Assembly (NCBI GenBank): GCA_900554895.1
Contig: USIX01000042.1
Location: 1-16,228, forward strand
Source: an uncultured Megamonas sp.
GTDB lineage: Bacteria; Bacillota; Negativicutes; Selenomonadales; Selenomonadaceae
Length of the DNA: 16,228 bases
Direction: 5' to 3'
Below the pieces are notes generated by a model. The model saw nothing but the letters and a program-made list of their open reading frames with translations. It ran no database searches and was not told the DNA's origin. How positions within the stretch are numbered: the first letter of the stretch is position 1; every line of letters begins with the position of its first letter. Position numbers and translations under genes: made by a program. Of the stretch, positions 833-10,480 are shown in pieces.

Positions 833-2128
833 TCATATCAGTAAGTCATTAAATTTGCAAAATTGGCTATGGAAAAACAGTTTAATATCTTTTAATGCTC
901 CGTTTCTGTGTTTAGCTACATAAAGATGCACAATATCTTTTTCTTCTTCTGTACCTGTTTTATATAAAAACATTACAATATCCGCGTCTTGTTCTATTGC
1001 GCCGCTTTCCTTTAGGTTGGATAACATAGGTTTATTCTGTTTTTCCGTTTCTCTGTTTAATTGGGAGAGTGCTATAATTGGTATTTGCAATTCTTTAGCT
1101 AGTAATTTTAATTCTCTTGTTATCTTTGCAATTTCCTGTTGTCTGTTTTCTGCTTTTGTGTCCGTTACCATTAATTGCAAATAATCTAAAACAATAAGCT
1201 GTATATCCTCTTTAGCTTTTAATTTTTGGGCTTTAGAACGTAATTCAGATATGTTTAATCTTGCGGTATCATCAATAAAAAGCGGCGCGTTAGAGATTTT
1301 GTCAGCTGACCTTATAAGTTTTTGCCAATCGTCTTCTTCTAAACTGCCTAATCTTATTTTATTGCTGTCAACTAATCCGTCTATACTAAAAAGTCTATTA
1401 TATAGTTCCGGCTTAGACATTTCCAGAGAAAAGAAAGCAACAGGTTTTTTATATTTTATAGCAACGGCACCCGCTACGCCTAGACTAAAAGCCGTTTTTC
1501 CTACTGCCGGACGTGCCGCCAAAATAATAAGATTTCCTTTTTGCAATCCGCCAGTTAATTTATCTAGGTCTGTAAAACCGGTATAAAGTCCCGATATCTT
1601 GCCCTTTTGGCGGTCATTACATCTTTTTTCTATGTCCGTATACGCCTGCATTGTGTCATTTTTCGGGTTTGGTAGCTGGTCGTTTTTTAAGGCTTTCATT
1701 TCTAACAACTCATTCTTAGCCTTATAGATACCGTCGTAAATATTTTTATCGTCGCAATAATACATAATCTTATTTAGTTTTGCCTGTAAATTCCGTCTTA
1801 AAGCATTTTCTTTTACGATGTCGGCATAATATTTTATATTCGCGGCTGATGGAACATAATTCGCTAGGTCTGTAACATAAGAAATACCGCCAACTTTTTC
1901 AAGTATCCGTTTGTTCTCCAGTTCAGCTATTGTTGTTGTTAAATCAATATTTGTCTTTTTATCGAACATTTCCAGCATAATGGAATATATTTCCTTGTTC
2001 GCCGGTCTGTAAAAATCTAAAGGTGTCAAGATGTCTTTGACGGTGTTTATTGCCTTAAAGGTATCCGTATTTATAATTATTGCGCCCAAAACGCTTTTTT
2101 CCGCGTCTATGTTAAAATATTCTTTCAT
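833..2128 (-). CDS. dnaB: Phage-type replicative DNA helicase, DnaB family
   Basis: A 431-aa DnaB-family hexameric helicase that would unwind DNA at the element's origin. The N-terminal domain (about 1-100) opens EKSVLGAIIIN with LDFYRPANKEIY, which is the usual DnaB N-terminal pattern. The RecA-like ATPase domain (about 180-431) has Walker A ARPAVGKT (205-212), SLEMSK (234-239), Walker B LIVLDYLQL (311-319), ALSQLNR (353-359) and KHRNG (406-410), so all core motifs are present. The start ATG at 2128 follows AAAGGAGGAAG at good spacing; an in-frame ATG 60 bases upstream has no ribosome site. Length is slightly below chromosomal DnaB (about 440-470). The gene follows the initiator gene with a gap of 146 bases and is tightly coupled to the 68-aa gene. 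The pairing with an iteron-binding initiator indicates that the element replicates with its own loader and helicase. It is a mobile-element paralogue, not the chromosomal dnaB. Confidence 0.95.
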   Translation of the reverse strand: MKEYFNIDAEKSVLGAIIINTDTFKAINTVKDILTPLDFYRPANKEIYSIMLEMFDKKTNIDLTTTIAELENKRILEKVGGISYVTDLANYVPSAANIKYYADIVKENALRRNLQAKLNKIMYYCDDKNIYDGIYKAKNELLEMKALKNDQLPNPKNDTMQAYTDIEKRCNDRQKGKISGLYTGFTDLDKLTGGLQKGNLIILAARPAVGKTAFSLGVAGAVAIKYKKPVAFFSLEMSKPELYNRLFSIDGLVDSNKIRLGSLEEDDWQKLIRSADKISNAPLFIDDTARLNISELRSKAQKLKAKEDIQLIVLDYLQLMVTDTKAENRQQEIAKITRELKLLAKELQIPIIALSQLNRETEKQNKPMLSNLKESGAIEQDADIVMFLYKTGTEEEKDIVHLYVAKHRNGALKDIKLFFHSQFCKFNDLLI

Positions 2129-2243
2129 GTTAAAATCTTCCTCCTTTGTTATTAGAGTCATTTTAAGCCATTTTCTCGCCATGCACATATAAACATATAC
2201 ATAATATATTTTTTAGCCGTTTACGGAACTGATAGGTGTATTT

Positions 2244-2264
2244 AAACATGTTTTGTGGTATAAT
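2244..2264 (+). promoter_or_regulatory. Possible antisense promoter and AAACATGTTT palindrome
   Basis: In the gap between the initiator and helicase genes there is a perfect 10-bp palindrome AAACATGTTT (2244-2253) followed by TGGTATAAT (2256-2264), an extended -10 on the plus strand. No good -35 is visible. Transcription from it would run antisense into the initiator gene 3' end. The evidence is sequence pattern only. Confidence 0.25.
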
Positions 2265-2274
2265 ATATATACAT

Positions 2275-3195
2275 TTAAAATGTTGCAAAAGGCTCTTGGT
2301 AATATGGCTTTTTACATGGTTCAGTTTCTTGCGGTTGGCTATTGCCTGCCGCTTCTGTTATTTCATCTTCCCACCGTTCACCATTCAGCCATGTTGTTGG
2401 ATAGGGTATATACTTTCCTTTTTCTTTTAGCCAATCCTCAGAATTACTTTGGGTTTTGACCGCTGACAGAATTTGCTTGAACAGCTCATCACTAGGTTTC
2501 AGTTTAAGCCATATTTTTAAGGCATTGGCTTTAGCTCTTTTCTTAGGGTATAATTGCCAAAACTCATTGAACATCTGCAAATACTTTTCTTCTTGTTTTT
2601 TCTTAGAAGATGTATTTTTCTTTTTCTCTGAAGTAGGTACTTTGGTATCTGCTTCTTTTTTTGTATTAGAATTATTATCTTCTTGAGAAAAAGACACAGT
2701 GTCAATCTCTGATTGACTATATATATTATTCTTATACTTATTCTTATATATATTCTTATTGTGTCTAATTTTGCGACTGTTTACTGTCTGATTTTGCGAC
2801 TGTTTACCCTCTAATTTTGCGACTGTTTGCTCGTCTAACCCTCTAATTTTGAGACTGTTTAAAAATAAAGATTTTATCTTAATTTCATTTATAGAATATA
2901 TACTTATATTTCCGCCTTTGCTGGCATTTTTGATAAGATATTCATCATTTACTAGTTTTTTTAATGCTCTTATTGCTGTATCTTTGCTGACGTTAAATTC
3001 TTTTTGAATATATGTGAAACTGCCTGTATATTCCTTGCTTTGAACATTGAAGCTAAGAATTTCACTTAATATAGCTCGTTCCAGTGGTTTAAGTCCTAGC
3101 GTTCTAAATACTTTATAGTCTTTAACAAATAAGAAATCATTGTCTTTCAATATGTCTTTAAGTGTTTTTTCTGTATTCTTTTCACCCTCTTTCAT
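2275..3195 (-). CDS. Phage replication initiator protein (winged-helix N-terminus, origin inside the gene)
   Basis: A 306-aa protein with three parts. Residues about 30-105 form a winged helix-turn-helix (KPLERAILSEILSFN, then SKDTAIRALKKLVNDEYLI) expected to bind the origin. Residues about 120-205 are a Lys/Asn/Ser-rich linker. The C-terminal part carries EFWQLYPKKRAKANALKIWL (211-230) and YPTTWLNGERWEDE (about 255-268), a signature often seen in phage replication proteins and likely to contact the helicase. The reading frame of the linker region coincides with four DNA iterons and an AT-rich tract (2693-2861), as in lambda gene O. The ATG at 3195 is chosen because AAGGGAAG lies about 10 nt upstream; the GTG at 3204 would be too close to it. 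It lies upstream of the DnaB-like helicase in the same leftward operon, matching an initiator/helicase pair. The family name is inferred from motifs and context. Confidence 0.85.
   Translation of the reverse strand: MKEGEKNTEKTLKDILKDNDFLFVKDYKVFRTLGLKPLERAILSEILSFNVQSKEYTGSFTYIQKEFNVSKDTAIRALKKLVNDEYLIKNASKGGNISIYSINEIKIKSLFLNSLKIRGLDEQTVAKLEGKQSQNQTVNSRKIRHNKNIYKNKYKNNIYSQSEIDTVSFSQEDNNSNTKKEADTKVPTSEKKKNTSSKKKQEEKYLQMFNEFWQLYPKKRAKANALKIWLKLKPSDELFKQILSAVKTQSNSEDWLKEKGKYIPYPTTWLNGERWEDEITEAAGNSQPQETEPCKKPYYQEPFATF
2693..2861. other. Putative replication origin inside the initiator gene
   Basis: Within about 170 bp there are four iterons (2764-2861), an AT-rich stretch with three 11-nt repeats of TTATTCTTATA type (about 2726-2760, period 12) and two overlapping palindromes, GACAC-A-GTGTC (2693-2703) and GTCAATC-TCT-GATTGAC (2701-2717). 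Order and scale match the lambda-type origin (iterons, AT-rich unwinding region, palindrome) that lies in the middle of its initiator gene. The pattern is seen directly; the function is inferred. Confidence 0.75.
2764..2861. repeat. Four 20-bp iterons
   Basis: Copies of TCTAATTTTGCGACTGTTTA start at 2764, 2787, 2810 and 2842. Copies 2, 3 and 4 each differ from copy 1 at one position. The first three have a 23-bp period; the fourth is offset by an extra 9 bp. Because 23 is not a multiple of 3, the copies are read in different codon frames of the initiator gene, so conservation acts on DNA and not on protein. Confidence 0.9.
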
Positions 3196-3243
3196 TGGGT
3201 TCACTTCCCTTCTTTTGGCTGTTTTGTATCGTTAGAGGAAAAC

Positions 3244-3280
3244 AGCCCCTAATATAATAAAATCGGGGGCTTTATTTTTA
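3244..3280 (+). terminator. Hairpin with T-rich tail between HTH and initiator genes
   Basis: AGCCCC(T) pairs with (G)GGGGCT across a 14-nt AT loop and is followed on the plus strand by TTTATTTTTA. On the minus strand, where the flanking genes are, the stem is followed by only four T, so leftward termination would be partial at best. Confidence 0.5.
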
Positions 3281-3325
3281 TAAATATATTTAGTAAAATT
3301 TACTTGCAAAATATTTTTATTTGTT

Positions 3326-3350
3326 GCCTTGCTTATGCAGGGCTTTTTTT
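3326..3350 (+). terminator. Strong plus-strand terminator overlapping the end of the HTH gene
   Basis: GCCTTGC / GCAGGGC (7 bp, one G·U) with loop TTAT and seven T on the plus strand. The loop contains the stop codon of the minus-strand HTH gene. No plus-strand gene lies upstream, so it would stop antisense transcripts. Confidence 0.5.
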
Positions 3351-3593
3351 ATTGTCCTTTTTTAAATAATCAGCACTTTCTTCCTGTAGAAATTGCTTAA
3401 AGTCCGCCACGTTTACAAGTCTTAAACCATAGCTAAGGTCTAAGAAACTGTCTTTATATTTTGGCAGTGTCCGCATTTTATTCAAATTTCGCCAAATGGT
3501 AGTTCTTCCCATATCAAAAAGTTTACCGAGATTACCGGCTTTAATAAAAATCTTGCCGTCATCTGCTGTATATTCTTTTAAAACAACTTTCAT
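3333..3593 (-). CDS. Small helix-turn-helix protein, excisionase-like
   Basis: An 86-aa protein with a helix-turn-helix at about residues 18-40 (GNLGKLFDMGRTTIWRNLNK) and a second helical part (VADFKQFLQEESADYL) ending in a basic tail. The fold pattern resembles phage excisionase/MerR-like DNA-binding proteins that recognise one side of an operator. The start has a very strong ribosome site (AAAGGAGGTGA, 7 nt before ATG). It is the first gene of the leftward block containing the initiator and helicase, so it may be an early regulator or the directionality factor for the integrase at 6871. A copy of a 34-bp direct repeat lies 55-90 bases upstream, and the second copy lies just before the integrase gene. 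Xis function is inference; a plain early regulator is equally possible. Confidence 0.7.
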   Translation of the reverse strand: MKVVLKEYTADDGKIFIKAGNLGKLFDMGRTTIWRNLNKMRTLPKYKDSFLDLSYGLRLVNVADFKQFLQEESADYLKKDNKKSPA

Positions 3594-3647
3594 GCGCTCT
3601 CACCTCCTTTCTAGGGAATTTTTTTAATTATATTAACAGCTTATAAA

Positions 3648-3681
3648 AAACGATTAAAAAGCATTTTAGAAGGTGGCTAGT
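3648..3681 (+). repeat. Direct repeat, left copy (34 bp)
   Basis: A 34-bp sequence with core AGCATTTTAGAAGGTGGC (3660-3677) recurs in the same orientation at 6811-6843; the copies differ only by one A in an A-run. This copy is between the 86-aa HTH gene and the 85-aa gene. Confidence 0.9.
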
Positions 3682-3689
3682 ACGTTTAT

Positions 3690-3947
3690 TTATTTCTTGC
3701 TTCTTGCGTATTGCATGGTTAAATAATTTATATCTTTTTTTGTAAAACCTTTTCGTATTAAGGCACATTCATAATTTGTGGCATCTGTATGACATTCCAA
3801 TAGTTTATCTATTAAAATTCCGATTATATATTCATTGCCGTCTACTAACGAGTATATTGCTGTTAGTATGTCGTCAATATGTTTTTCGCTGATGTTTAAC
3901 TGCTCAAGTTCTTCTTTTGTTTCTTCTGTTAATTTGTCATAATTCAT
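3690..3947 (-). CDS. Hypothetical protein, 85 aa
   Basis: An acidic, mostly alpha-helical small protein (KLTEETKEELEQLNISEKHI near the start, ending MQYARSKK). I do not recognise it and see no catalytic motif. The ATG at 3947 has GGAGAG about 10 nt upstream. It lies 89 bases after the Cro-like gene on the same strand, so it is probably the second gene of the leftward early transcript. This is where temperate phages often keep small early regulators or antirepressors, but the sequence gives no direct support for that. Confidence 0.7.
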   Translation of the reverse strand: MNYDKLTEETKEELEQLNISEKHIDDILTAIYSLVDGNEYIIGILIDKLLECHTDATNYECALIRKGFTKKDINYLTMQYARSKK

Positions 3948-4036
3948 ATTTACTACTCTCCGTATTCACATAAACTTATGTCTATGGTTATCGTTATCTG
4001 CCATGGGCTTTTTTGTTGCCTTTGGCGGTCAGCTCA

Positions 4037-4240
4037 TTAATCCTTAATTAAGTCTTTCGGTTCTTTGATATCAAGTGCAATTGCTATTTTGCCTAAGGTT
4101 TTTAAACTGTAAACAGCGTTATTTTTTAACATTCTAGATAATGTAGCATCTGATATTTGCGCTTTTTGTGCTAAGTCGGTAGCATTAAACATCTTTTTAG
4201 CCATTGCATTATCTAAAATTTTGCGTTCAAGATTTAACAT
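4037..4240 (-). CDS. Cro-like XRE-family DNA-binding protein
   Basis: A 67-aa single-domain helix-turn-helix protein of the XRE/Cro type: NATDLAQKAQISDATLSRML is the HTH (about residues 19-38), followed by SLKTLGKIAIALDIKEPKDL, the standard fourth/fifth helix ending. The ribosome site AAAGGAGGA is ideal. It is first in the leftward transcript from a TTGAAA/TATACT promoter and divergent to the larger XRE repressor at 4408, the standard layout of a temperate-phage switch. By analogy it would shut off the repressor promoter and favour early gene expression; that role is inferred from position. Confidence 0.85.
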   Translation of the reverse strand: MLNLERKILDNAMAKKMFNATDLAQKAQISDATLSRMLKNNAVYSLKTLGKIAIALDIKEPKDLIKD

Positions 4241-4280
4241 TATTTTTCCTCCTTTTTGCCAATTTAATATAATTATATGA

Positions 4281-4298
4281 CTTAATAATCCAATTAAG
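4281..4298. promoter_or_regulatory. Candidate operator of the genetic switch
   Basis: CTTAATAATCCAATTAAG is a perfect 6-bp inverted repeat around a 6-bp spacer. It starts immediately downstream of the leftward -10 box, covering the expected start of the cro-like transcript, as expected for a dimeric XRE repressor site. I see no second clear copy at the rightward promoter. Confidence 0.5.
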
Positions 4299-4327
4299 AG
4301 TATACACTTTTATATAATAAATTTCAA
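4299..4327 (-). promoter_or_regulatory. Leftward early promoter
   Basis: On the minus strand TTGAAA (4327-4322), a 17-bp spacer and TATACT (4304-4299). It drives the cro-like gene and probably the early operon. The operator-like inverted repeat adjoins it. Confidence 0.75.
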
Positions 4328-4357
4328 TCCTTTTTGAACATATTTTTAAAAATATTA

Positions 4358-4386
4358 TTGATTTCCTCTTTTTTGGATTATATAAT
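4358..4386 (+). promoter_or_regulatory. Rightward repressor promoter
   Basis: TTGATT (4358-4363), a 17-bp spacer and TATAAT (4381-4386). The expected start near 4393 is only a few bases before the ribosome site AGAGGTG of the repressor gene, so the 5' leader would be very short, reminiscent of repressor-maintenance promoters. Confidence 0.75.
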
Positions 4387-4407
4387 AAATATAAAGAGGT
4401 GAATGTA

Positions 4408-5016
4408 ATGAGCTTTCAAGAAAATTTGAAATACTATAGAGAGAAAGCAGGTTATAAAACGGCTAAAGAGTTAGCGGACGCGTTAAATCTTCCTTATAAC
4501 ACTTATGCAGGATATGAGAGCAAAAACCGAGAGCCAAAATATCAAATGTTATGTAAAATAGCTGATTTACTGAATGTTTCCATAGATGAGCTGCTAGGAC
4601 GAAAGAATAATATATTAGGCAATAATGAAGATGAACGATTAGAAAAAGAAATAGATAATGTTTTAAGTCATGGTTTACTAGGTGATGTATTTTCGGGGCT
4701 TAATCCTATTGAATTAAAGTTGATAAATATACTTAAGGAGGATATTACTTTTCAAATTCATACTGATAAATCAAATCAAACTTTGAATATACCGAAAATG
4801 AAAATTATTGAAGGTTTTAATAATATTGATGATGATTTTAGACGGAGAAAAAAAGTAGAAAAAGAAAAATACATCTATTCTCAAATCTTAGAGCGTATAG
4901 ATATATTAAGAAAAGCTACTGATACTACACAAAAAGAAATTAATTCTCTTATAGATATAGCTTTTAAGATTTATCAATATAAATTTCCAGAACTACTTAA
5001 ACTAATTAATAAATAA
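4408..5016 (+). CDS. XRE-family repressor, 202 aa, without a peptidase domain
   Basis: The N-terminal XRE domain (about residues 3-66) contains TAKELADALNLPYNTYAGYE and SKNREPKYQMLCKIADLLNV, then SIDELLGRK, a very typical CI-like HTH. The remaining 135 residues are charged and helical (LEKEIDNVL, RRRKKVEKEKYIYSQILERI) and show no S24/LexA peptidase signature such as a Ser-Lys dyad region. It is therefore unlikely to be inactivated by RecA-stimulated self-cleavage; induction would need another route, for example an antirepressor or an ImmA-type protease, neither of which is seen here. ATG at 4408 is chosen over GTG at 4399, which lies inside the ribosome site. Divergent from the Cro-like gene, it is the presumed lysogeny repressor. 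Confidence 0.85.
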   Translation: MSFQENLKYYREKAGYKTAKELADALNLPYNTYAGYESKNREPKYQMLCKIADLLNVSIDELLGRKNNILGNNEDERLEKEIDNVLSHGLLGDVFSGLNPIELKLINILKEDITFQIHTDKSNQTLNIPKMKIIEGFNNIDDDFRRRKKVEKEKYIYSQILERIDILRKATDTTQKEINSLIDIAFKIYQYKFPELLKLINK

Positions 5017-5493
5017 ATATGTTTATGATGTCAAATTCAAAGCACTTATGCTAAAAGAATATACAGTAAATACATCACTGCTAAAAAGAAAGTAAGCATC
5101 TTACTTTGAATAGAGCTGAATTTTCAGTTGAATAAAGATTAAGTTAATCATTCTCCAGAAATAGTGTGGCGGTTTTATTCGGCATTTAATCAGCTTAAAA
5201 TTGCACCGATTAAAACTTTTACAAATATCACGGTGGAAAATTCCGCTTTGATTGGCTCTCACTGAATGTAAAATTGCGTTCGTTGACAAAGAAAGGATTT
5301 TATTTTGCTTTAGGCTAATCATATGCACTCGCTAAAGAAAACGCTTTAAATCGGCTCTCAGAAGGTCTGTTTTTCGTTTACTCAGCAGAAAAGTCGGCTC
5401 AGTTAATGTTGATGTTATTAGCTCTCCTTAATTTTTAGGTCAGTGATTTTCCTATCTTAGAACCGCCAAAATATACAGAAATGAGGTGTAATT
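5017..5493. other. Long intergenic region before the Uma2 pair
   Basis: No convincing gene lies in these 477 bases. Its only recognisable content is a 59-bp sequence at 5316-5374 repeated between the Uma2 genes, and several scattered GGCTCTCA-like words (about 5253, 5352, 5418). It may contain remains of an older gene copy, but I could not align it with Uma2 coding sequence by eye. Confidence 0.5.
5316..5374 (+). repeat. 59-bp leader repeat, copy 1
   Basis: Aligns without gaps to 6094-6152 with 46 of 59 positions identical. Shared blocks are TAATCATATG, AAAGAAAACG, CGGCTCTCA, AAGGTC and a final TTTTT. It lies 119 bases upstream of the first Uma2 gene. Confidence 0.8.
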
Positions 5494-6081
5494 ATGGATA
5501 ATTTAGCATATAAAGATGATTATAGGATATCTGAAATGATTGACGGCGTTACCGTCATGATGTCGCCGCGCCCTGCCGTTGAACATTCGACGGTAAGCTT
5601 TAACATTGCCACCATTTTCAAGACTTATTTACGTGGAAAAACTTGCAGGGCGTTCAATGACGGGATAGCAGTCTTTTTAGACGACAAGAATTATTATGTA
5701 CCTGATGCCATGATTGTATGTGATAGAAGCAAGATACATCATGACGGCATACACGGCGCGCCCGATTTGGTTGTTGAAGTTCTCTCGCGTGGAACGTACC
5801 GGAACGACAGAGGCAGAAAAAAAGATGTCTACGAAAAAGCGGGCGTAAAAGAATATTGGATTGTCGACGTTAAAAGTCGAATTGTAGAGGTCTATTTGAA
5901 CGGCGAAAATGGCTTTTATTTAGATGACGCTTACGAATATCACACACCTGAGGAACTGGAAGCCGACAGCAAATTAGATAAAGATGACCCACGTAAATTG
6001 GATAAAATCGACACAGAAATAAAAGTTTCCTTGTATGACGATTTGATTGTTTATTTGGCTGACGTTTTTGAAGATGTTTAA
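5494..6081 (+). CDS. Uma2-family (DUF820) putative PD-(D/E)XK nuclease, copy 1
   Basis: A 195-aa Uma2/DUF820 protein. Family marks are the N-terminal RISEMIDGVTVMMSPRP, YVPDAMIVCD (PD at 70-71), GAPDLVVEVLSR (D91, E95) and KKDVYEKAGVKEYWIVD (about 109-125). The family has a restriction-endonuclease-like fold with predicted metal-dependent nuclease activity; the cellular role is not well established. The ATG has GAGGTG 6 nt upstream. It is followed after 93 bases by a paralogue of identical length, roughly half identical by eye. Position between the lysogeny repressor and the integrase, on the repressor strand, is that of lysogenic-conversion genes in temperate phages, so a role in the lysogen (for example against other DNA) is possible but only inferred. 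Confidence 0.85.
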   Translation: MDNLAYKDDYRISEMIDGVTVMMSPRPAVEHSTVSFNIATIFKTYLRGKTCRAFNDGIAVFLDDKNYYVPDAMIVCDRSKIHHDGIHGAPDLVVEVLSRGTYRNDRGRKKDVYEKAGVKEYWIVDVKSRIVEVYLNGENGFYLDDAYEYHTPEELEADSKLDKDDPRKLDKIDTEIKVSLYDDLIVYLADVFEDV

Positions 6082-6093
6082 TTTTCACAGGTG

Positions 6094-6152
6094 TAATCAT
6101 ATGTATCCGCCAAAGAAAACGGCGCAGAACGGCTCTCATAAGGTCGCTTTTT
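6094..6152 (+). repeat. 59-bp leader repeat, copy 2
   Basis: Counterpart of 5316-5374. It fills most of the gap between the two Uma2 genes and ends 22 bases before the second start codon. In this copy CGCC and GGCG around AAAGAAAAC could form a small stem, which copy 1 does not preserve. Confidence 0.8.
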
Positions 6153-6174
6153 AATGAAGAAACGAGGTGAAACA

Positions 6175-6762
6175 ATGAATAACTTAGCATATCAAGATGA
6201 TTATAAAATATCGGAAATGATTGGCGGTGTTACAGTCATGATATCGCCGCGTCCTCGATATGAGCATGTGGCAGTTAGCGGCAATATCTTTTTTGAATTT
6301 AAATCGTACTTACGAGGAAAAAAATGCAAGGCTTTTGCTGACGGTTTTGACTTGTATCTTGATGATAAAAACAGATTTATACCTGACTGTATGATTGTAT
6401 GTGACAGAAGCCAAATAAAGCATAACGGTATTTACGGTGCGCCGAATTTGGTTGTTGAGGTTCTTTCACGTTCGACTGCTGAAAATGACAGAACAAAGAA
6501 AAAAGATGCTTACGCCCGTGCCGGTGTTTTAGAATACTGGATAGTTGACACATGGTCTAAATCGGTAGAAGTTTATTACAATCATGATAACGAATTAAAG
6601 CTAAATCATATCTATTATTATCTGACTGATGAAGAAATAGCGGAAAACGACGCATTGCCGTCTGATGATGTCAATAAGATAGAAACGATAGATACTGAAA
6701 TAAAAGTCAGTATTTTTGACGATTTATATATAAAACTGAAGGATATCTTTGAAGATATTTAA
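6175..6762 (+). CDS. Uma2-family (DUF820) putative nuclease, copy 2
   Basis: A 195-aa paralogue of the preceding gene, sharing the frame MxNLAYxDDYxISEMIxGVTVM, PDCMIVCDRS (70-71), LVVEVLSRS, KKKDAYARAGVLEYWIVD and the C-terminus TEIKVSxxDDL with FED at the end. At the position of D91 in copy 1 it has N91 (GAPNLVVEV), while E95 is kept; if D91 is a metal ligand, activity may be changed. The start ATG at 6175 is chosen because CGAGGTG lies 6-7 nt upstream and it gives the same length as copy 1; the upstream ATG at 6154 lacks a ribosome site. The gene is followed by a GGCTCAT/ATGAGCC hairpin and the integrase. It probably arose by tandem duplication that included the leader sequence. Confidence 0.85.
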   Translation: MNNLAYQDDYKISEMIGGVTVMISPRPRYEHVAVSGNIFFEFKSYLRGKKCKAFADGFDLYLDDKNRFIPDCMIVCDRSQIKHNGIYGAPNLVVEVLSRSTAENDRTKKKDAYARAGVLEYWIVDTWSKSVEVYYNHDNELKLNHIYYYLTDEEIAENDALPSDDVNKIETIDTEIKVSIFDDLYIKLKDIFEDI

Positions 6763-6765
6763 GCA

Positions 6766-6783
6766 GGCTCATGCTGATGAGCC
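6766..6783 (+). other. Hairpin after the second Uma2 gene
   Basis: GGCTCAT-GCTG-ATGAGCC is a perfect 7-bp stem with a 4-nt loop, three bases after the stop codon. No T run follows, so it may stabilise the mRNA 3' end and is not a typical terminator. Confidence 0.45.
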
Positions 6784-6810
6784 GCCATATAAATAAAAAA
6801 ACCGCATATC

Positions 6811-6843
6811 AAACGATTAAAAGCATTTTAGAAGGTGGCTAGT
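6811..6843 (+). repeat. Direct repeat, right copy (33 bp)
   Basis: Same-orientation copy of 3648-3681, one A shorter. It lies 27 bases before the integrase start codon. The two copies bracket the 85-aa gene, the switch and both Uma2 genes. Confidence 0.9.
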
Positions 6844-6870
6844 CAATCGAATGAAAGGCGGTTATAAATT

Positions 6871-8055
6871 ATGTGGATATGTAAAATAGAAAACAGCAAA
6901 GGTATAAGATACAAATATAGTGAACGGTTTAAAAATCCTATTACACAAAAATATATTACATTGTCAGTAACGCTTAACGCGAACAACAGACATGCACAAA
7001 AGCGGGCTTTAGAGCTGTTGAAATTGAAATATAATGAAAAACTGGACAGCATGAAAACAGCTCAGCAGAAAAGACAGGAAAAATTGCAACATCTGACTTT
7101 TTATAATGTTGCTGATGAATGGCTAGAATATACCGCTCCTATGGTTAAAACGGAAACAGTCAAAAACCATATCAATAATGTAAACAGAATAAAAAGGGCA
7201 ATCCATGAAGATTTGCCCTTTCTTGAATTTTCTTCCGTGCTGGCGGAAAAAGTTGTTTATAACATGTATTATACTGAAAAATTGTCCTATAGTTATTCTA
7301 ACACGATACTGATAACAATTAAAGCTATTATCCGCTATGCCAAAAAAGCAGGATATATTGAAGATGTATCCGCATATGAAGAAATAAAACTGAAACGTCG
7401 TCCAGCAACTAAACAGGAACTTGAAAAATCTACAAATAAATTTCTTGATAAAAATGAACTGGTAGAATGTTTGAAGCAGTTAAAGGCGATAAATATGCGT
7501 GTCGGTCTTGCCATGGAATTTATTGCGCTTACCGGTTTAAGATGTGGCGAAATGCTGGCACTTAGAATGCAGGATTATGATGCTATGAATTCAAGCATAA
7601 GCGTAAACGGAACTATAATAAAAAGCGTATGCAACGGCGACGATATTCAACGAGGAACACCGAAAAACATCTATTCATATCGTGATATAGTTCTTAACGA
7701 TAGAGCTAAGCAGATTATAGAATGGTTCATCTTAGAAAATAAGAAGTCGGCTCAATGGAATAGAAAGGTATATAGAGATAAAGGATACATTTTCACGACG
7801 CAAAGCGGTAATCCGTATAATATTCAATATATTAATAGGAAATTGAGAGCTATATATCTCGACGGTAAAAAAATATCAACGCATGTATTCAGGCACACGC
7901 ATATTTCCATGCTTGCTGAAATGGGTATACCGTTAAAAGCTATAATGCAACGTGTGGGACATAATGACCCGAATACTACTCTTAGCATCTATACTCATGT
8001 TACAAATACAATGAAAGCTGAACTTAAAAACAAGCTCAAGGCTCTGCACTTCTAA
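6871..8055 (+). CDS. int: Tyrosine site-specific integrase
   Basis: A 394-aa phage/ICE integrase that recombines element and host attachment sites. The N-terminal part (about 1-60) is a small arm-binding domain, the middle (about 76-165) a SAM-like core-binding domain (FYNVADEWLEYTAPMVK), and the rest the catalytic domain. Catalytic residues are all visible: R224 (TGLRCGEML), K265 (TPKN), H338 and R341 (HVFRHTH), H364 (VGHNDPNTT) and Y374 (SIYTHV). The start ATG has AAGGCGG upstream. The gene points at the 3' end of tRNA-Ser(UGA), 205 bases away, which is the normal relation of an integrase to its tRNA target. Complete and apparently functional. The excisionase is probably the 86-aa HTH protein at 3333, unusually far away. 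Confidence 0.97.
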   Translation: MWICKIENSKGIRYKYSERFKNPITQKYITLSVTLNANNRHAQKRALELLKLKYNEKLDSMKTAQQKRQEKLQHLTFYNVADEWLEYTAPMVKTETVKNHINNVNRIKRAIHEDLPFLEFSSVLAEKVVYNMYYTEKLSYSYSNTILITIKAIIRYAKKAGYIEDVSAYEEIKLKRRPATKQELEKSTNKFLDKNELVECLKQLKAINMRVGLAMEFIALTGLRCGEMLALRMQDYDAMNSSISVNGTIIKSVCNGDDIQRGTPKNIYSYRDIVLNDRAKQIIEWFILENKKSAQWNRKVYRDKGYIFTTQSGNPYNIQYINRKLRAIYLDGKKISTHVFRHTHISMLAEMGIPLKAIMQRVGHNDPNTTLSIYTHVTNTMKAELKNKLKALHF

Positions 8056-8260: not shown

Positions 8261-8285
8261 TGGCGGAAAGGGTGGGATTCGAACC
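8261..8285 (-). other. Probable attachment site (att) at the tRNA 3' end
   Basis: The integrase gene lies on the 3' side of an intact tRNA-Ser gene and the flanking DNA changes from element to host genes across it. The crossover is therefore expected in the 3' part of the tRNA (T arm to CCA). The other copy is not in the window, so the exact core is unknown. Confidence 0.5.
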
Positions 8286-8349
8286 CACGGTACGTTGCCG
8301 TATCACCGGTTTTCAAGACCGGCTCCTTAAACCACTCGGACACCTTTCC
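8261..8349 (-). tRNA. tRNA-Ser (anticodon UGA)
   Basis: On the minus strand the acceptor arms GGAAAGG (8349-8343) and CCTTTCC (8271-8265) pair, followed by G and an encoded CCA (8263-8261). The anticodon stem CCGGT / ACCGG holds the loop CTTGAAA with anticodon TGA (8315-8313). A long variable arm (GATACGGCAACGTA) and the T loop GTGGGTTCGAATCCCAC confirm a class II serine tRNA of 89 nt. It decodes UCN codons such as UCA. It is complete despite being the integration target. Confidence 0.97.
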
Positions 8350-8364
8350 ATAAGATACTATATT

Positions 8365-8394
8365 AGTATAGCAAGTTTATTTGCAAAATGTCAA
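8365..8394 (-). promoter_or_regulatory. tRNA-Ser promoter
   Basis: On the minus strand a consensus TTGACA (8394-8389), an 18-bp spacer and TATACT (8370-8365). The start would be about 8-10 bases before the tRNA 5' end. Confidence 0.85.
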
Positions 8395-8510
8395 CTGAAA
8401 ATTGTTTGTAATTAATTAAAATGTTGGCAGATAGAAAATTTTGTTCATTGGGTTCATAAAATGTAGAGTTTTCTGATAGAGTAAGATTTTAAGTTTGGTA
8501 ATTATTAGAC

Positions 8511-8539
8511 TTGTAAAGTTAAAATAGATGAATTATACT
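8511..8539 (+). promoter_or_regulatory. Promoter of the leader-corA operon
   Basis: TTGTAA (8511-8516), a 17-bp spacer and TATACT (8534-8539). The expected start near 8546 leaves about 32 bases to the leader ORF start. The 115 bases between the tRNA promoter and this site show nothing else. Confidence 0.6.
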
Positions 8540-8577
8540 TAATATGCAATATTTACATATGAGGACGGTGAATAATA

Positions 8578-8694
8578 ATGGACGATTATCCGGAGAGTAA
8601 CAGGTTAAATAAAAGAAAAAGACAATTTAAAATCAAAACGGAAGAACAATCTGCCATTATGCACACTGTCTATAGAAACAACAGCAGGCGGTAG
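8578..8694 (+). CDS. 38-aa leader ORF upstream of corA
   Basis: ATG at 8578 with GAGGACGGTG upstream opens a 38-codon frame that starts MDDYPES, becomes strongly basic (RLNKRKRQFKIK) and ends YRNNSRR before TAG at 8692-8694. I know no family for it. Its value lies in position: the stop codon is inside the 5' arm of the hairpin that hides the corA ribosome site, so terminating ribosomes would melt that hairpin. The acidic, proline-containing start recalls the Mg2+-sensing leader peptide MgtL, but this is a resemblance in composition only. It may be a regulatory leader or a small functional protein coupled to corA. Confidence 0.6.
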   Translation: MDDYPESNRLNKRKRQFKIKTEEQSAIMHTVYRNNSRR

Positions 8695-8731
8695 ATTTTC
8701 TTTCGGCTTCTTGAAAGGAGAAATCTATCGC
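8688..8731 (+). promoter_or_regulatory. Hairpin hiding the corA ribosome binding site
   Basis: The outer stem GCGGTAGATTT (8688-8698) / AAATCTATCGC (8721-8731) has 11 pairs with one G·U. An inner stem CTTTC (8700-8704) / GAAAG (8713-8717) pairs into the ribosome site AAAGGAG (8714-8720). The 3' arm ends one base before the corA ATG at 8733. The leader stop TAG (8692-8694) is inside the 5' arm. No T run follows, so control would be at translation and not by intrinsic termination. Confidence 0.7.
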
Positions 8732-8732
8732 A

Positions 8733-9692
8733 ATGTTGAAAATTTATAAATCCATGGAAAGCGGACCGCTGGAAGAATTAAATCTGAAAACTTTGGAAAA
8801 AGGAGCATGGATAAATATTGTGGCGCCTACACCGTACGAGTTGAAAGTTGTAGGTAATCTCACGGAAGTTGAACCGGATTTTCTGCGTTCCGCACTGGAT
8901 AATGAAGAACGTTCCCATACGGATATTGAAGATAATTCTATCATGGTCTTAACGAATGTTCCGGTTATGCGTACTTTTGAATCATACGATACATTGCCGT
9001 TGGCGATTATTTTGACACCGGATTATATAATTACTGTATGTCTTGAAGATACGCCCGTAATATCCGATTTTAACGAAAGGACGTACCGTTCATTTCGTAC
9101 ATTTAAGAAAACTCGTTTTCTGTTTCAGATACTGTATAAATCCGTAACATATTATTTGAAATATCTGCGGCAGATTGACAAGCTGTCTGATGAAATAGAA
9201 TCCCGTCTGCGTGAATCTACTCAGAACAAAGAAATTCTGCGTCTTCTGGAACTACAGAAAGCCCTTACATATTTTAATGCTTCCCTGCGTTCCAATGGTG
9301 CAGTGCTGGATAAATTAATGCGGCTCCGTTCCAATCATAATCTGCAAAATATTATAAAGCTGTATGAAGAAGATGAGGATTTATTGGAAGATGTCATCAT
9401 AGAAAATAAGCAGGCACGTGAAATGGTTGAAATGTACAGTACAATTTTAGCAAGACTTGCTGATACGTTTTCATCCATAATGTCGAATAATCTTAACTTA
9501 GTAATGCGATTTTTAACGGCGATAACAATACTTTTAGCCATACCGACGGTAATATCCAGTTTTTTCGGGATGAATGTGGAAGGATTTCCTTCGTTTTCAC
9601 AGGGAATGTTTGCATTTGTAGACATATGCGTGATATCCGTAGCATTATCTGTCATATGTGCAACAGTTTTATGGCGAAAAAATATGTTTTGA
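8733..9692 (+). CDS. corA: CorA-family Mg2+/Co2+ transport protein
   Basis: A 319-aa CorA channel of the inner membrane, normally a pentamer importing Mg2+ (also Co2+, Ni2+). The cytosolic N-terminal domain (about 1-150) precedes a long helix (about 150-258, YLRQIDKLSDEIESRLRES). The two C-terminal membrane helices are about 258-278 and 292-313, with the signature GMN at 279-281 (FFGMNVEGFPSF) in the loop, and the tail WRKNMF. Length is normal for the family. The ribosome site AAAGGAG is in the hairpin described at 8688-8731. It leads an apparent operon with a 76-aa unknown, a Phd-like protein and a metal-sensing repressor, with intergenic gaps of 15 and 19 bases and then an 8-base overlap. 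Confidence 0.95.
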   Translation: MLKIYKSMESGPLEELNLKTLEKGAWINIVAPTPYELKVVGNLTEVEPDFLRSALDNEERSHTDIEDNSIMVLTNVPVMRTFESYDTLPLAIILTPDYIITVCLEDTPVISDFNERTYRSFRTFKKTRFLFQILYKSVTYYLKYLRQIDKLSDEIESRLRESTQNKEILRLLELQKALTYFNASLRSNGAVLDKLMRLRSNHNLQNIIKLYEEDEDLLEDVIIENKQAREMVEMYSTILARLADTFSSIMSNNLNLVMRFLTAITILLAIPTVISSFFGMNVEGFPSFSQGMFAFVDICVISVALSVICATVLWRKNMF

Positions 9693-9957: not shown

Positions 9958-10158
9958 ATGCTGGTAATATCTTCATCCGATTTGTTGAATGAATTTACGT
10001 TGTATGCGGATAAAGCTGTGGATGAAAAGGAAACATTAATAGTACAGCGCAGCAGCGGAAAAAATCTTGTTGTCATGTCAATGGAGCAATACAATGAAAT
10101 GCAAAAAAAGATTTTTTTAGCTAAAGAAGCTGCAAACGGTGAGGTTAAAAATGGATAA
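9958..10158 (+). CDS. Phd/YefM-family antitoxin-like protein without a toxin gene
   Basis: A 66-aa protein with the Phd/YefM pattern: SSSDLLNEFTLYADKAVDEK, then ETLIVQRSSGKNLVVMSMEQ and YNEMQKKIFLAKEA. In this family the N-terminal domain binds DNA as a dimer and the C-terminal tail wraps a toxin of the RelE/YoeB or Doc type. Here the tail is short and neither neighbour is a recognisable toxin. GGGAGG gives a strong ribosome site. Its last codons overlap the next gene by 8 bases (ATGGATAA), so the two are translationally coupled. It may serve as a small DNA-binding regulator of the operon; that is inference. Confidence 0.8.
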   Translation: MLVISSSDLLNEFTLYADKAVDEKETLIVQRSSGKNLVVMSMEQYNEMQKKIFLAKEAANGEVKNG

Positions 10159-10480
10159 TGAGGTACATGAGCATGTTCATGCAGACGGAACGGTGCATAT
10201 ACATCATGGACATGCTCATTCGCATACACAGACAAAAGTGGTTTTAAACAGACTGTCAAGAGCCATCGGTCATTTAAATGCGGTTAAACGCATGGTGGAG
10301 CAGGGCAGGGACTGCAGTGACGTGCTAATTCAGCTGTCAGCTGTAAACTCTGCATTGCAAAATGTTTCCAAAATCATATTGAAAGACCATATCGAACACT
10401 GCCTGGTGGAGGCTGTGAAGGAAGATGACAGGGAAGCTATCGATAAACTGAAAGAAGCTATTGATAAATTCATAAAATAA
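10151..10480 (+). CDS. CsoR/RcnR-family metal-sensing repressor with His-rich N-terminus
   Basis: A 109-aa protein. Residues about 29-109 form the all-helical CsoR/RcnR/FrmR (DUF156) domain: LNRLSRAIGHLNAVKRMVEQ, C55, then KDHIEHCLVEAV with H80 and C84. The C55/H80/C84 spacing (25 and 4) equals the copper-binding C36/H61/C65 set of CsoR. The preceding segment carries nine His within residues 6-25, an added metal-binding tail. Such proteins are tetrameric repressors released from DNA by metal binding. The ATG at 10151 follows GGTGAGG; the GTG at 10139 would lack a ribosome site. It is the last gene before a strong terminator and overlaps the Phd-like gene. Which metal it senses (Cu, Ni, Co or Zn) cannot be read from sequence, but the neighbouring CorA supports a metal-homeostasis role. 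Confidence 0.9.
   Translation: MDNEVHEHVHADGTVHIHHGHAHSHTQTKVVLNRLSRAIGHLNAVKRMVEQGRDCSDVLIQLSAVNSALQNVSKIILKDHIEHCLVEAVKEDDREAIDKLKEAIDKFIK

Follow-up and report, generated by a model that had tools for sequence, protein, structure and literature searches.

Leader Peptides Upstream of Magnesium Transporter Genes

The Mg2+ channel gene corA is often regarded as constitutive, and Mg2+ sensing by leaders whose translation fails is, to our knowledge and in the papers found, known only from enterobacteria. In mgtQ-type leaders, the destabilization of ribosomes at early acidic codons is countered by ribosomal protein L31. In translational attenuators of the ermC type, a ribosome on segment 1 of the leader allows segments 2 and 3 to pair (helix 2:3), which frees the ribosome site in segment 4. 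The locus described here has the same helices, 1:2 and 3:4 against 2:3, with a small effect of a ribosome placed on the first leader codons at folding equilibrium; ermC-type systems differ in having an antibiotic-stalled ribosome, a resistance gene, and no acidic-proline start.

By analogy, the locus would work like mgtQ-mgtB and resemble corL-corA in purpose, a likeness for which we make no claim of shared descent. In the excerpts of the Salmonella mgtQ study used here (PMC8092293), Asp2 and Glu5 destabilize ribosomes, helix 2:3 forms in competition with 1:2 and 3:4, mgtB falls when the mgtQ start is lost, control is shown at translation, and the proline acts through base pairing, not stalling. 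By the same excerpts, the likeness to our locus extends over a small ORF that carries Asp2 and a proline near its start, a Mg2+ transporter gene downstream, the three helices with the target ribosome site in 3:4, and translation as the level of control, proposed in our case. mgtQ, however, encodes 8 aa, lies between genes of an enterobacterial operon, and serves a P-type transporter (PMC8092293, same excerpts), whereas the Negativicutes leader, likened to it by anatomy and motif only, is mostly 24–43 aa long and stands before corA. Common descent is unlikely because gene, phylum, and context differ, and 8 aa are too short for a homology test.

The corL-corA system of E. coli and Salmonella shares with our locus a leader before corA, alternative RNA structures, and (predicted in our case) inverse expression of leader and corA, and it responds to Mg2+ in E. 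coli; it differs in operating by Rho-dependent transcription termination (PMC11552253, in the sections used here). According to these sections, corA rises when the corL start is lost, in contrast to the fall predicted by the Negativicutes model. They also cover mgtL-mgtA, where a proline/acidic leader is poorly translated at low Mg2+ and the Mg2+ transporter is turned on; this likeness comes with Rho dependence, another gene, and an enterobacterial host (PMC11552253).

The locus came to attention through a sequence-only reading, which knew of no description of a Mg2+-responsive or coupling attenuator before a Bacillota corA. For Negativicutes that judgment stands, as no such corA leader was found in Rfam or among the papers listed on corA leaders, attenuation, and ribosome destabilization (a coverage with few subscription journals); the logic, on the other hand, is already that of Salmonella mgtQ-mgtB.

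Leader ORF and Ribosome-Site Hairpin at corA

The window is the whole stretch of DNA analyzed, 16,228 nucleotides from an uncultured Megamonas sp. Its features around corA are as follows.

8511..8539, forward strand: weak promoter-like sequence TTGTAA-17-TATACT 5' of the leader (9/12 consensus match)
8563..8581, forward strand: segment 1, spanning the ribosome site and start codon of the leader; partner of segment 2 in helix 1:2 (window z −5.3)
8567–8571, forward strand: leader ribosome site GGTGA, within segment 1
8578..8694, forward strand: leader ORF of 38 aa, starting MDDYPES (ATG...TAG reading frame)
8578..8592, forward strand: acidic-proline N-terminus M-D-D-Y-P, candidate pausing/drop-off signal (from conservation)
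8639..8671, forward strand: segment 2, late in the leader ORF (8654–8660 and 8664–8671 with segment 1; 8639–8655 with segment 3)
8688..8705, forward strand: segment 3, pairs with segment 2 or segment 4; contains the leader stop in the window
8712..8731, forward strand: segment 4, corA SD AAAGGAG (8714–8720) and spacer, masked by segment 3
8733..9692, forward strand: corA, Mg2+ channel gene (Pfam PF01544, CorA, E 3.3e-50)

The promoter-like sequence is suggestive at most, since nine such sites were found between 8240 and 9800 against 5.8 expected. Leader ORF, corA, and the stem between them agree with the sequence-only reading, which had described a 38-aa leader and an 11-bp stem (8688–8698/8721–8731): the stem contains one G-U pair, its 5' arm holds the leader TAG (8692–8694), and a single base separates its 3' arm from the corA ATG at 8733. 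The 11 bp are correct but constitute just the outer part of the hairpin, which in the minimum-energy fold comprises 18 pairs (8688–8705 with 8712–8719 and 8722–8731) and is extended by 5 further pairs that enclose the corA start (8682–8686 with 8734–8738). The corA SD falls mostly inside this helix. The fold of 8680–8740 reaches −24.8 kcal/mol (z −4.75) and that of 8545–8760 has a z-score of −3.78, with none of 200 shuffles as good in either case.

A simple way in which such a leader could act is translational coupling, whereby the ribosome ending the leader melts 3:4, the next ribosome can start on corA, and 2:3 is not needed. The window, with its stop codon in the 5' arm, suits this idea, as do most of the 55 loci in which the stop was located (L039, without a leader stop before corA, was left out): the stop falls inside the arm or no more than 2 nt from its start in 13 and within the 15 nt preceding it in 26, a total of 39/55. 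In the other 16, however, the stop precedes the arm by a greater distance, at most 65 nt, and coupling as the whole explanation seems to us unlikely. The earlier proposal that a finishing ribosome opens the hairpin is not supported as a general rule, in view of these 16 loci and of the competing helix 2:3, which is among the best-supported pairings (Section on helices, below). Smooth translation across segment 2 should instead close corA, reversing that step. At the stop in the window, which does fall within the arm, a ribosome that terminates could still melt the hairpin for a short time; such coupling may add control wherever the stop is near the arm, but it cannot be the common principle.

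Three Competing Helices and Their Co-Variation

In addition to the corA hairpin (3:4), the window can form a helix 1:2 (8563–8570/8664–8671 and 8575–8581/8654–8660) and a helix 2:3 (8639–8655/8690–8705), the latter mutually exclusive with 3:4; neither had been noticed in the sequence-only reading. Relative to 200 dinucleotide-shuffled versions of the middle region, the z-scores of 1:2, 2:3, and 3:4 are −5.3, −4.6, and −6.3, respectively, each with p 0.005, the smallest value possible. The same comparison in 39 diverse loci (69 loci thinned by shared 6-mers, window included) gave mean z-scores of −2.43, −2.20, and −2.07, with p < 0.05 in 27/39, 23/39, and 19/39 loci. An extension to 19 further loci, leaving out L124 with its incomplete upstream region, yielded 12/19, 11/19, and 7/19.

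Because the middle regions do not align and RNAalifold on pooled MAFFT alignments finds no consensus (−0.2 for 69 leaders, −2.8 for 26 rumen-type leaders), co-variation was tested directly by partner permutation, in which helix partners are swapped between loci. Over the 39 loci, the z-scores were −6.0 (1:2), −10.9 (2:3), and −8.2 (3:4), with p 0.0002 each, and five other pairings used as controls gave p 0.26–0.89. In a second group of leaders, thinned by shared 6-mers to 17 loci, 2:3 (z −5.3) and 3:4 (z −3.6) again reached p 0.0002 each, with five control pairings at p 0.06–0.87; helix 1:2 scored z −1.4 (p 0.09) in strict, non-overlapping windows and z −3.1 in wider windows in which segments 2 and 3 partly overlap. 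The stem co-variation whose absence would have refuted the sequence-only reading is present in both groups, as the 3:4 values attest. An earlier cross-locus test had returned mean z-scores of −1.03, −1.01, and −0.76 against controls of +0.09, −0.08, and +0.06.

Alignments gave a mixed picture of helix 1:2, which beats its slid versions in MAFFT alignment A1, with two of five covariation measures not beyond shuffles, and is unsupported in the plain MAFFT alignment A2 of the second group, where a +1 slide pairs 71.9% vs. 66.5% for the helix itself. RNAalifold did find a consensus for 10 oral Selenomonas (−32.2) and for 5 Anaerovibrio-like sequences (−24.7), the latter showing 2:3. Among the nearest genomes, the sister L085 has U-A in place of the helix 1:2 pair C8566–G8668, and L086 has an entirely different middle region with ACCUACC opposite GGUAGGU of segment 3. 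Judged by sequence, these data establish three mutually competing putative helices, 1:2, 2:3, and 3:4, with segment 4 as the corA ribosome site, and they favor the broader claim of the sequence-only reading that leader and ribosome-site hairpin would together control corA. Coupling alone leaves the co-variation of 2:3 (z −10.9 and −5.3 in the two groups) unexplained.

The position of the helices also bears on control by Rho-dependent transcription termination governed by the leader, as in mgtL-mgtA and corL-corA, with the corA hairpin secondary. The gene and the kind of leader start are the same as in E. coli, whose corA is under corL and Rho (PMC11552253, sections used here). In the Negativicutes loci, however, segment 4 coincides with the ribosome site of corA, about which the 3:4 pairing co-varies, so that we find Rho control improbable here; an intrinsic-terminator-like site between leader and corA was also looked for and none was found.

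A strong, conserved structure before a Mg2+ gene could also be a metal-binding riboswitch that happens to contain an ORF. Against this, the window leader and 11 relatives hold no Rfam family, and it is the pairing and the leader start that are conserved, not the loop and stem sequences; we consider a riboswitch very improbable, and as a candidate at the leader it was rejected on the missing Rfam match in the window and the 11 relatives. The M-box (RF00380) in particular has no match before corA in these 12 sequences, and M-boxes occur elsewhere, not at corA, in 5/17 genomes with the leader and 5/15 without. The ‘corA motif’ RNA is likewise a structured RNA before corA, but in the part of its description used here (PMC6429828) it is a riboswitch candidate reported only from Gammaproteobacteria and metagenomes.

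Two loci vary the arrangement. In L118 (corA 67% identical), an apparently shortened version, the leader start MDDPPRS lies ~48 nt before corA, and the leader's ribosome site GGCAGGTGAGCTC shows complementarity to GAGCTCGCC, immediately 5' of the corA start, as if segment 1 joined segment 4 directly. L062 (upstream of corA at 2864) carries a long insertion between segments 2 and 3 that its close relatives L061 and L072 do not have.

Conservation and Evolution of the Leader

We examined 280 upstream bases in 80 close corA relatives, retained from 241 on genome contigs, using a uniform leader test that called for an ORF behind an SD, acidic at residue 2 and with proline at position 5 or 6. The test was passed by 70/80 near relatives vs. 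13/1600 shuffles, and with L027, recognized by eye, the leader precedes corA in 71/80, which satisfies the other check of the sequence-only reading, conservation of the small ORF. It is absent from these 280 bases in the other nine (L047, L048, L059, L064, L070, L075, L077, L078, and L080). Among 40 distant upstream regions, hand-picked for spread from the corA matches listed, 17 have the leader, 14 by the uniform test (0/800 shuffles) and three by eye (L120, L131, and L156), with the early proline missing from L131 and L156. The distant loci with the leader belong mainly to a group whose CorA is ~57–62% identical; among the loci examined at 55% CorA identity or less, L137 (54%) and L153 (51%) alone pass the uniform test. 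The named carriers (Pectinatus, Propionispira, Megamonas, Selenomonas, Mitsuokella, Anaerovibrio, Centipeda, and Schwartzia) are all Negativicutes, as are the genomes of the second leader group. No plasmid relative matched 8356–9692, and 35 stretches of viral contigs fit a peptide pattern, none encoding a relative.

The leader usually starts MDDHP, MDGDHP, MDDTP, MDADHP, MDAGP, or MDVDRP, and the closest genomes found read MDDYPES (L085, CorA 97%) and MDEYPES (L086, CorA 91%). A nucleotide pattern of the MDDHP type matched once each in 26/300 genomes of the class (reversed control 0), in 26/26 cases 120–171 nt before corA; a second-type pattern matched once each in 18/30 chosen genomes, 18/18 sitting 131–321 nt before corA. 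Both patterns together thus adjoin corA in 44/44 genome matches. The first Pro is residue 5 or 6 in 85/87 leaders, 69 of the 87 having been gathered with a pattern that requires Pro, and at least two acidic residues occupy positions 2–6 in 38/39 representatives, only two in 34/39. The likeness to Mg2+-sensitive acidic/proline leaders, seen earlier in the single window peptide, is supported. The small number of acidic residues and the single early proline in most leaders, and the missing early proline of L131 and L156, count against the model given below.

In 22 diverse leaders of the D-D-H-P type, codons 2–5 have pS 0.62, pN 0.02, and pN/pS 0.03, where the low pN is partly circular because the group was chosen by peptide and the high pS is not; codons 6–22 evolve nearly freely (pN/pS 0.92). 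For x-D-x-P-type leaders (n = 24), the ratio is 0.34 at the start vs. 0.90 later. The part of the leader peptide that is kept is, on this sequence comparison, its start. Coupling offers no reason for constant first codons with a free-running remainder. A functional small protein was rejected, as codons change with almost no constraint beyond the fifth or sixth and lengths run from 14 to 43 aa, mostly 24–43 aa.

At the nucleotide level, CCTAG at the proline-serine codons (codons 5–7) is kept across distant loci beyond apparent peptide need; the window has CCGGAG where many leaders keep CCTAG.

A Model for Ribosome-Driven Control of corA

We read the locus as a translational attenuator of corA driven by the translated leader, and give this a probability of roughly 0.6. 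In general terms, its operation can be divided into three situations. (i) No ribosome: 1:2 and 3:4 would both form and corA would be off. The claim in the sequence-only reading that failure to translate the leader closes corA is consistent with this, since both helices are allowed by sequence when segment 1 carries no ribosome. (ii) Smooth translation: the ribosome would clear segment 2, 3:4 would form, and corA would again be off. (iii) Faltering translation: a ribosome pausing on the first acidic/proline codons, or ribosomes repeatedly aborting after them, would occupy segment 1 and not reach segment 2. With segment 2 free as segment 3 emerges, 2:3 would form, leaving segment 4 open and corA on. 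The likely trigger of this third situation would be low Mg2+, weakening ribosomes on acidic/proline nascent chains (intrinsic ribosome destabilization), and by analogy the switch probably lets ribosome behavior at low Mg2+ turn corA on.

Folding calculations touch on the third situation. With segment 1 of the window blocked and segment 4 still to be synthesized, folding yields 2:3 (−22.2 kcal/mol); the addition of segment 4 takes the equilibrium back to 3:4. At equilibrium, a ribosome on the first codons raises mean SD accessibility from 0.29 to 0.34 (up in 21/56 loci, down in 5/56). In the window, SD accessibility at equilibrium is 0.25 in every state of ribosome placement. As for the start codon, its accessibility does not differ significantly from that in the covered-ORF state (p 0.18, equilibrium folding). 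Equilibrium models therefore lend the switch weak support, and not in the window itself. Because the equilibrium effect is small, and nil in the window, the ON state would have to depend on co-transcriptional order.

That Mg2+ is the signal sensed we infer by analogy, and the occurrence of the leader patterns beside corA only points to Mg2+. The same switch might answer to another signal, such as proline or its tRNA, an EF-P shortage, an antibiotic, or the general translation rate. The near constancy of the proline codon at 5 or 6 speaks for such a signal, yet a single early proline makes a weak proline sensor, and pattern matches beside corA only (26/26 and 18/18) are not what this alternative leads one to expect; we hold it to be rather unlikely. 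Returning to an attenuator responsive to Mg2+, the proline may matter less here than the acidic residues, because the mgtQ proline acted by pairing.

In its fullest form, the proposal is that Negativicutes evolved, independently of enterobacteria, a ribosome-based Mg2+ sensor in which failure on an acidic-proline start is relayed by a four-segment RNA to corA translation, an idea to which we would give even odds. The leader switch would give corA a specific control in Negativicutes anaerobes. The same logic would then operate in many species of a distant class, in dozens of natural peptide and RNA variants, which would make it possible to test whether acidic chains that destabilize ribosomes serve Mg2+ sensing in general, and through which residues. 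If true, nascent-chain ribosome destabilization would be a general and repeatedly invented means of Mg2+ sensing.

Genomic Neighborhood of corA in the Window

An apparent integrated mobile element occupies 833–8055, beside a tRNA gene on the reverse strand (8264–8349). It carries genes for a DnaB-like helicase and for a tyrosine integrase (6871–8055, ending ~200 nt from the tRNA gene), together with a neighboring pair of Uma2-like genes, the first of which has a Pfam match. On the other side, three genes after corA, lies a metal-sensitive transcriptional repressor of the CsoR/RcnR type (10139–10480, Pfam PF02583), preceded by a Phd/YefM-type antitoxin gene (9958–10158). Across loci, corA is found near a tmRNA gene in L006, L034, and L053, and near a tRNA gene in L001, L002, and the window.
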